Origin: Nitrospinota bacterium
Lineage (GTDB): Bacteria > Nitrospinota > Nitrospinia > Nitrospinales > VA-1
DNA length: 33,627 bases
NCBI GenBank assembly: GCA_014382285.1
Contig: JACNKA010000139.1
Location: 1-33,627 of the forward strand
Direction: 5' to 3'
The position numbers were made by a program, and so were the translations under genes. Position 1 is the stretch's first letter; each line of letters opens with the position of its first letter. The notes under the pieces were generated by a model. That model ran no database searches, had not been told where the DNA came from, and worked only from the letters and a program-made list of their open reading frames with translations. Below are positions 22,081 to 33,470 of this stretch, piece by piece.

Positions 22081-22155
22081 TCGTCACCGCGAGCCACTGA
22101 AAGGGGCGTGGCGATCCAGTCTTCTGGATTGCTTCGTTTCACTCGCAAAGACAGG
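22081..22155. repeat. REP-like dispersed palindrome
   Basis: tcGTCaccGCGAGccactgaaaggggcgtggcGATCCAGtcttCTGGATTgcttcgtttcaCTCGCaaaGACagg. Outer arms (GTC..GCGAG/CTCGC..GAC) and inner arms (ATCCAG/CTGGAT) are complementary; resembles the widespread 'CGTCATTGCGAGGAG...GCAATCC' type. Confidence 0.65.
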
Positions 22156-22208
22156 TTTTCAGGCCGAGCTAACCAGCTGCTTGCTCATTGCCACCGGCGG
22201 CTCGCCGG

Positions 22209-32955: not shown

Positions 32956-33208
32956 CGGATTGCCGATTTTGACCGTGGTGAGCTTGCCTTCAAGGGCTGA
33001 AATATCAATGTCGAAAGAAGAACCCAGGATAACACCTTGACGTTAAAGGTTTGTGGCGAAGAATCTAAACTGCTCGTATTGTAGGGCAAAGTGCCAGAAA
33101 ATGATTGAAATCTTATCTAAATGTTGATAAAAAGCTTATTCCAAAAACGTTTTCATGTGATGAACAATGTTTTTAGGAAATCGAAACCTTTTGAGAGGAG
33201 AGGGCTGG

Positions 33209-33337
33209 ATGAAAAAGTTGGTAATTTCACTTATTTGGATTTCGCTGGTATTGGTTTTATCTTCCTGTTCGATGGAATCAAAGTTCAATGGCGAAGGTCA
33301 CCAGTACGCACCTGAGGGTGTTGAAAAGAAACATTAA
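33209..33337 (+). CDS. Short lipoprotein (42 aa), absent from the supplied ORF track
   Basis: atgaaaaag...cattaa encodes MKKLVISLIWISLVLVLSSCSMESKFNGEGHQYAPEGVEKKH with a lipobox-like LSSC and GAGAGGAGAGG Shine-Dalgarno upstream. Confidence 0.75.
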   Translation: MKKLVISLIWISLVLVLSSCSMESKFNGEGHQYAPEGVEKKH

Positions 33338-33393
33338 TCTGCTGTTTTGCAGATAGCAATAACCCTTTCTCACGCTCGTGAGGCTGTTATTGC
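33337..33393 (+). ncRNA. Candidate structured RNA (stacked hairpins) downstream of the lipoprotein
   Basis: ATCTGC-tgtttt-GCAGAT (33337-33354), then GCAATAAC ... GTTATTGC (33356-33363/33386-33393) enclosing CTCAC-gctc-GTGAG (33369-33382). Confidence 0.5.
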
Positions 33394-33427
33394 CAGTGAC
33401 CTTGCGTGGTAAAGAGGTGTTATTTTT

Positions 33428-33470
33428 GGCGGGGAACGCTTTTGTTCCCTGCCTTTTTCTGTTTTTGATT
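33428..33470 (+). terminator. Intrinsic terminator
   Basis: GGCgGGGAAC-gctttt-GTTCCCtGCC followed by TTTTTCTGTTTTT. Confidence 0.85.

Follow-up and report, generated by a model that had tools for sequence, protein, structure and literature searches.

REP sequences are palindromes of 20-40 nt tagged with GTAG or CGTC at one end (PMC3733652), and the REPs (or PUs) and BIMEs of Enterobacteria and Pseudomonas, assigned to GTAG and CGTC superfamilies, are short imperfect palindromes present in about 100 or more copies per genome, mostly outside genes and forming mosaics with palindromic modules of other kinds (PMC2817692, PMC3733652). The BOX, RUP and SPRITE elements of Streptococcus pneumoniae are modular, structured and intergenic, belong to nearly one species group, vary at orthologous sites and can be co-transcribed (PMC3049150). 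MITEs are short non-coding elements with inverted terminal arms and many copies. Stem-loops between a stop codon and an intrinsic terminator are also found in 3′UTR-derived sRNAs such as CpxQ, SdhX and OppZ, and within its own gene CpxQ is the most conserved part (PMC9438474).

Here, we describe the 3′UTR of a small lipoprotein gene near the end of a 33,627-nt stretch of DNA (the window), which comes from the genome of a marine, Nitrospina-type member of the Nitrospinaceae (2.97 Mb, 94% complete; G000). The middle hairpin of this 3′UTR (h2), which lies before an ordinary terminator, is probably a copy, shortened internally and decayed, of a palindromic repeat that is genus-specific and high in copy number.

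The lipoprotein gene and the end of its mRNA

The lipoprotein has homologues in 26 of 46 Nitrospinaceae genomes, with Nitrospina sp. and Nitrospinota MAGs as its closest named matches; none of the Pfam families searched matched it, and a search of viral contigs returned no homologue. Its upstream neighbour is a divergent biotin ligase gene. A putative promoter 5′ of the lipoprotein gene (33105-33133: TTGAAA and TAAAAA separated by 17 nt, a TG preceding the second hexamer by one base) is very conserved and retained across genera. The 5′UTR (33144-33208) is predicted to form a hairpin and, after it, a weak CCUUUU..AGAGGG stem covering the Shine-Dalgarno sequence. Across 16 genomes from two genera, 98% of cells pair in this structure and there are 21 two-sided changes, a number reached by 0 of 500 shuffles and inflated by relatedness. 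One pair is broken in the window itself, and a model of the structure gave strong matches at the lipoprotein gene only. As a possible cis-regulatory RNA, this 5′UTR is in our view more promising than the 3′UTR. G005 and G011 (L036, L037) carry a truncated lipoprotein homologue, and an extra small lipoprotein ORF, MKRFFGIVLLLFLVTIMTPGCYGMGG..., separates it from the promoter region.

Table 1. Positions of the lipoprotein gene and of the elements downstream of it in the window.
Feature	Position	Strand	Sequence or remark
Lipoprotein ORF, 42 aa	33209-33337	+	MKKLVISLIWISLVLVLSSCSMESKFNGEGHQYAPEGVEKKH; RBS GAGAGGAGAGGG; TAA at 33335-33337
h1, 6-bp hairpin abutting/overlapping the stop codon	33337-33354	+	ATCTGC 33337-33342 / GCAGAT 33349-33354
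Match to repeat model R3	33346-33403	both	E = 0.0019; model built without the lipoprotein locus
h2, middle hairpin	33356-33393	+	GCAATAAC 33356-33363 / GTTATTGC 33386-33393
Inner hairpin of h2	33369-33373 / 33378-33382	+	CTCAC / GTGAG; enclosed by the h2 outer arms
Second GTTATT, alternative pairing partner	33419-33424	+	conserved no further than G013
Intrinsic terminator	33428-33458	+	GGCGGGGAACGCTTTTGTTCCCTGCCTTTTT; stem GGCGGGGAAC/GTTCCCTGCC + T5

The preliminary description of this locus had reported a 6-bp hairpin at the lipoprotein stop, an 8-bp outer stem around a CTCAC/GTGAG hairpin and a strong intrinsic terminator, and all three are present (Table 1). The folding energy of h1 and h2 together (33335-33396) is -23.5 kcal/mol, where shuffles average -10.9 (z -5.0, reached by 0 of 200 shuffles), with h1 at z -4.3 and h2 alone at z -3.9. 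Since its pairing starts at 33337, the first base of h1 is also the final one of the stop codon; such a stop-abutting hairpin recurs in relatives, in another genus with a different sequence (TCAG..CTGA). The terminator has the GC-rich stem followed by a U run of intrinsic (Rho-independent) terminators, folds alone at -19.6 kcal/mol (z -5.05 against shuffles), and is conserved within the window's genus, g1 (GGCGGGGAAC..GTTCCCCGCC), and, with changes, in genus g6 (GGCGGGGAA..TTCCCCGCC). At its 3′ end the lipoprotein mRNA has an ordinary, conserved intrinsic terminator, with a stop-abutting hairpin before it.

Across relatives, no part of the gene is less conserved than the region from stop to terminator, mean pairwise identity being 52% for the 3′UTR, 82% for the promoter and 5′UTR, 81% for the CDS and 85% for the terminator. 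We found h2 in 7 of 11 lipoprotein 3′UTRs of g1 (G000, G013, G002, G010, where the arms are broken, G008, G009 and G014) and in none from other genera; it is rearranged in G003 and absent in G015, G005 and G011.

A dispersed palindromic repeat in the genus

A direct DNA search of the window's genome for copies gave nothing significant, and it was a structure/profile model alone that revealed the repeats. When a covariance model of h2 (R1) was searched over 46 genomes, the extra matches were weak (E 0.003-1), about 55 nt long and confined to g1, with none in the 30 genomes of other genera; the sites had in common a full internal sequence, GGCGAGCAAAGAGTTGTCTCGGCTT, that is absent from the query. 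A gapped search for the arms confirmed the g1 copies, the few matches in other genera having unrelated interiors and a reversed-pattern control being nearly empty. We then used a second model (R3), made from 38 copies, none of them at the lipoprotein locus; most were picked by their exact arms, so arm conservation in this seed set is partly a product of selection. Among the 16 g1 genomes, R3 identified at least 107 copies in five, including that of the window, and 104, 98, 90, 89, 72, 71, 62, 29, 16, 9 and 8 in the others, the genomes being incomplete MAG assemblies and the E-values rough owing to a shortened calibration. The 30 genomes of other genera gave no matches in 20, 1-9 in nine and 23 in one (G035), a count that weakens strict restriction of the repeat to the genus. 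The matches in G035 and in several g6 genomes (1-9 each) may reflect real spread or MAG contamination.

The core of the repeat is 52-53 nt long (GCAATARCTC..~33 nt..GAGTTATTGC; consensus, by inspection, GCAATARCTYTTTCTGGCGAGCAAAGAGTTGTCTCGGCTTRACGAGTTATTGC) and is bounded by the arms GCAATARC and GYTATTGC in inverted orientation. As judged by inspection, the palindrome often runs on into flanks (GGGGCCAACTA..TAGTTGGCCCC) that finish with one or another GC-rich hairpin module, for example CCACTAGGCGTGG, CCAGCGTNACGCTGG, CCCTCGCTAGAGGG or CCGGCGGCTCGCCGG. G000, G013 and G003 share an orthologous site where the core is retained and the flanking modules differ. An empty-site test at two G000 copies away from the lipoprotein gene yielded no clean empty site, as most relatives keep a recognisable copy in place with different flanking modules. 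By simple, approximate ORF calling, six of ten G000 copies fall between ORFs and the other four extend to an ORF edge. The arms of the dispersed copies display no covariation, and thus no sign of selection on RNA structure.

These properties (short imperfect palindromes in high copy number, mostly extragenic and joined to other palindromic modules in mosaics) resemble those of REPs and BIMEs. Unlike REPs, however, the repeat has a core of about 53 nt instead of 20-40 nt and is not matched by the presence of a Y1/RAYT transposase: Y1_Tnp (PF01797) was found in 4 of the 16 genus genomes and in none of the high-copy G000, G003, G011 and G015, which are incomplete MAGs. The two are not co-distributed, and coupling to a RAYT is not supported. 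Inspection of the 38-copy alignment identified no GTAG or CGTC tag beside the cores, so that membership of the REP superfamilies fails on both tag and RAYT coupling. The likeness to BOX, RUP and SPRITE is one of organisation (modularity, structure, intergenic location, near-confinement to one group, variation at orthologous sites and the potential for co-transcription); host and modules differ. The family also recalls MITEs in its short, non-coding nature, inverted terminal arms and copy number, but neither a target-site duplication, which the palindromic flanks would mask, nor a parent transposon was identified, PF01797 being the transposase family searched for. It is apparently an undescribed family of a known, REP/BIME/BOX-like kind: in the Nitrospina gracilis genome paper (PMC3578206) "palindrom" is absent and "repeat" occurs once, in an unrelated sense, and a search of non-subscription literature on Nitrospina with repetitive and palindromic elements found no paper.

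Elsewhere in the window, R3 has a weak second match (22148-22194, minus strand, E 0.17), and the contig end (33590-33627) carries an inverted repeat, CCTTCTCCC/GGGAGAAGG, perhaps another dispersed repeat which stopped the assembly.

The middle hairpin and its possible origins

Within the window, the best match to R3 is h2 (Table 1), and the same locus is matched in five relatives: G014 (E 3.4e-4), G013, G009, G002 and G008. As R1 finds the repeat and R3 finds h2, the two retrieve each other reciprocally. The h2 arms of the window match the repeat arms exactly, and h2 is 38 nt long, without 14-15 nt from the middle of the core. The full core with its internal GGCnAGCAAAGAG..TCTCGGCTT is not present in h2; because most of the repeat interior is missing, we call it a shortened or decayed relative and not a full copy. 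Fuller copies do occur at the equivalent place in other genomes. That in G003 lies in the lipoprotein 3′UTR (R3 E 1.7e-4), and in G012, which yielded no lipoprotein homologue, a full-length copy (L010, 1558-1631) lies 14 nt from the equivalent terminator (1501-1544). Given these two copies, the terminator region has probably received repeats more than once. Against the reading of h2 as a repeat copy stand its score, 20 bits compared with 60-90 for good copies, and its own inner hairpin, which together with the missing middle leave some chance that an 8-bp palindrome arose here by convergence. We consider it unlikely that h2 is a hairpin of the lipoprotein 3′UTR in its own right, kept as an mRNA-stabilising structure and resembling the repeat by chance. 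The stability of h2 on its own would fit such an origin, as would the retention of the local fold and outer arms in six of seven genomes with one two-sided change (G-C to A-U) and two one-sided changes, a pattern compatible with selection on RNA structure; yet covariation across the homologous regions was no better than in column shuffles (170 and 86 of 500 reached the observed values), and chance likeness is difficult to square with the reciprocal model matches, the fuller copies in G003 and G012, and the left arm of h2 in G009, GCAATAACTCTTTCTTGCG, set beside GCAATAGCTCTTTCTGGCG in the repeat.

The preliminary description had instead proposed a stable 3′UTR-derived sRNA or a cis-regulatory element with switching structures. 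Processed sRNAs of this type do typically combine stable structures with a U-rich intrinsic terminator (PMC9438474), but for one ending at the terminator here we found no positive support, and we regard it as very improbable: the stretch is the least conserved in its gene, the opposite of CpxQ (PMC9438474), the 3′UTR being unconserved beyond the terminator (its mean identity is 52%, that of the CDS 81%); it is missing or replaced in G015, G005, G011 and G003; an internal promoter did not rise above chance; and a search of Rfam, at gathering score and at a relaxed E-value, matched no known family, with sub-gathering matches at chance level. A cis-acting switch between GCAATAAC:GTTATTGC and AATAAC..:..GTTATT is more improbable still. 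The second GTTATT does exist, starting at 33419 rather than at 33418 as first reported, and the alternative pairing is thermodynamically possible, the long-range and local folds of the window having -29.6 and -27.7 kcal/mol and the two folds lying about 2 kcal/mol apart in G000, G013 and G002. The long-range pairing, however, is found only in the window and in its nearest relatives, G013 and, more weakly, G002, and is gone or no better in G010, G008, G009 and G014; since this partner is unconserved, the switch is unsupported. Furthermore, neither fold touches the terminator stem, so that an element downstream of its own gene would have no obvious output.

Consequences for the genus

If h2 is a decayed copy of the repeat, as we favour, absence in other genera would favour insertion over deletion as the polarity of change. 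The repeat, which we infer to be mobile, would have entered the lipoprotein 3′UTR within the genus or at its base, upstream of an existing terminator, and was most likely tolerated there; in some species, shortening, loss or replacement would have followed. Once transcribed, h2 would form an extra stem-loop ahead of the terminator, and this could slow decay from the 3′ end or protect against 3′ exonucleases, plausibly by analogy with REPs (PMC3733652). It is conceivable, if doubtful, that in these repeats marine nitrite oxidisers harbour mobile palindromic DNA of a new, mosaic class, in which a constant core of about 53 nt swaps its GC-rich hairpin ends among copies, spreads with no need of a RAYT, prefers gene 3′ ends beside terminators and shapes mRNA 3′ ends across the genus.

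On the reading that we favour, a testable repeat family takes the place of a guess at a riboswitch or sRNA. In a nitrifier lineage of ecological importance, the model of one odd 3′UTR hairpin can expose palindromes that have gone unannotated and number some 100 or more per genome; these repeats are potentially useful as strain markers, and should be masked ahead of sRNA and terminator prediction in these genomes.
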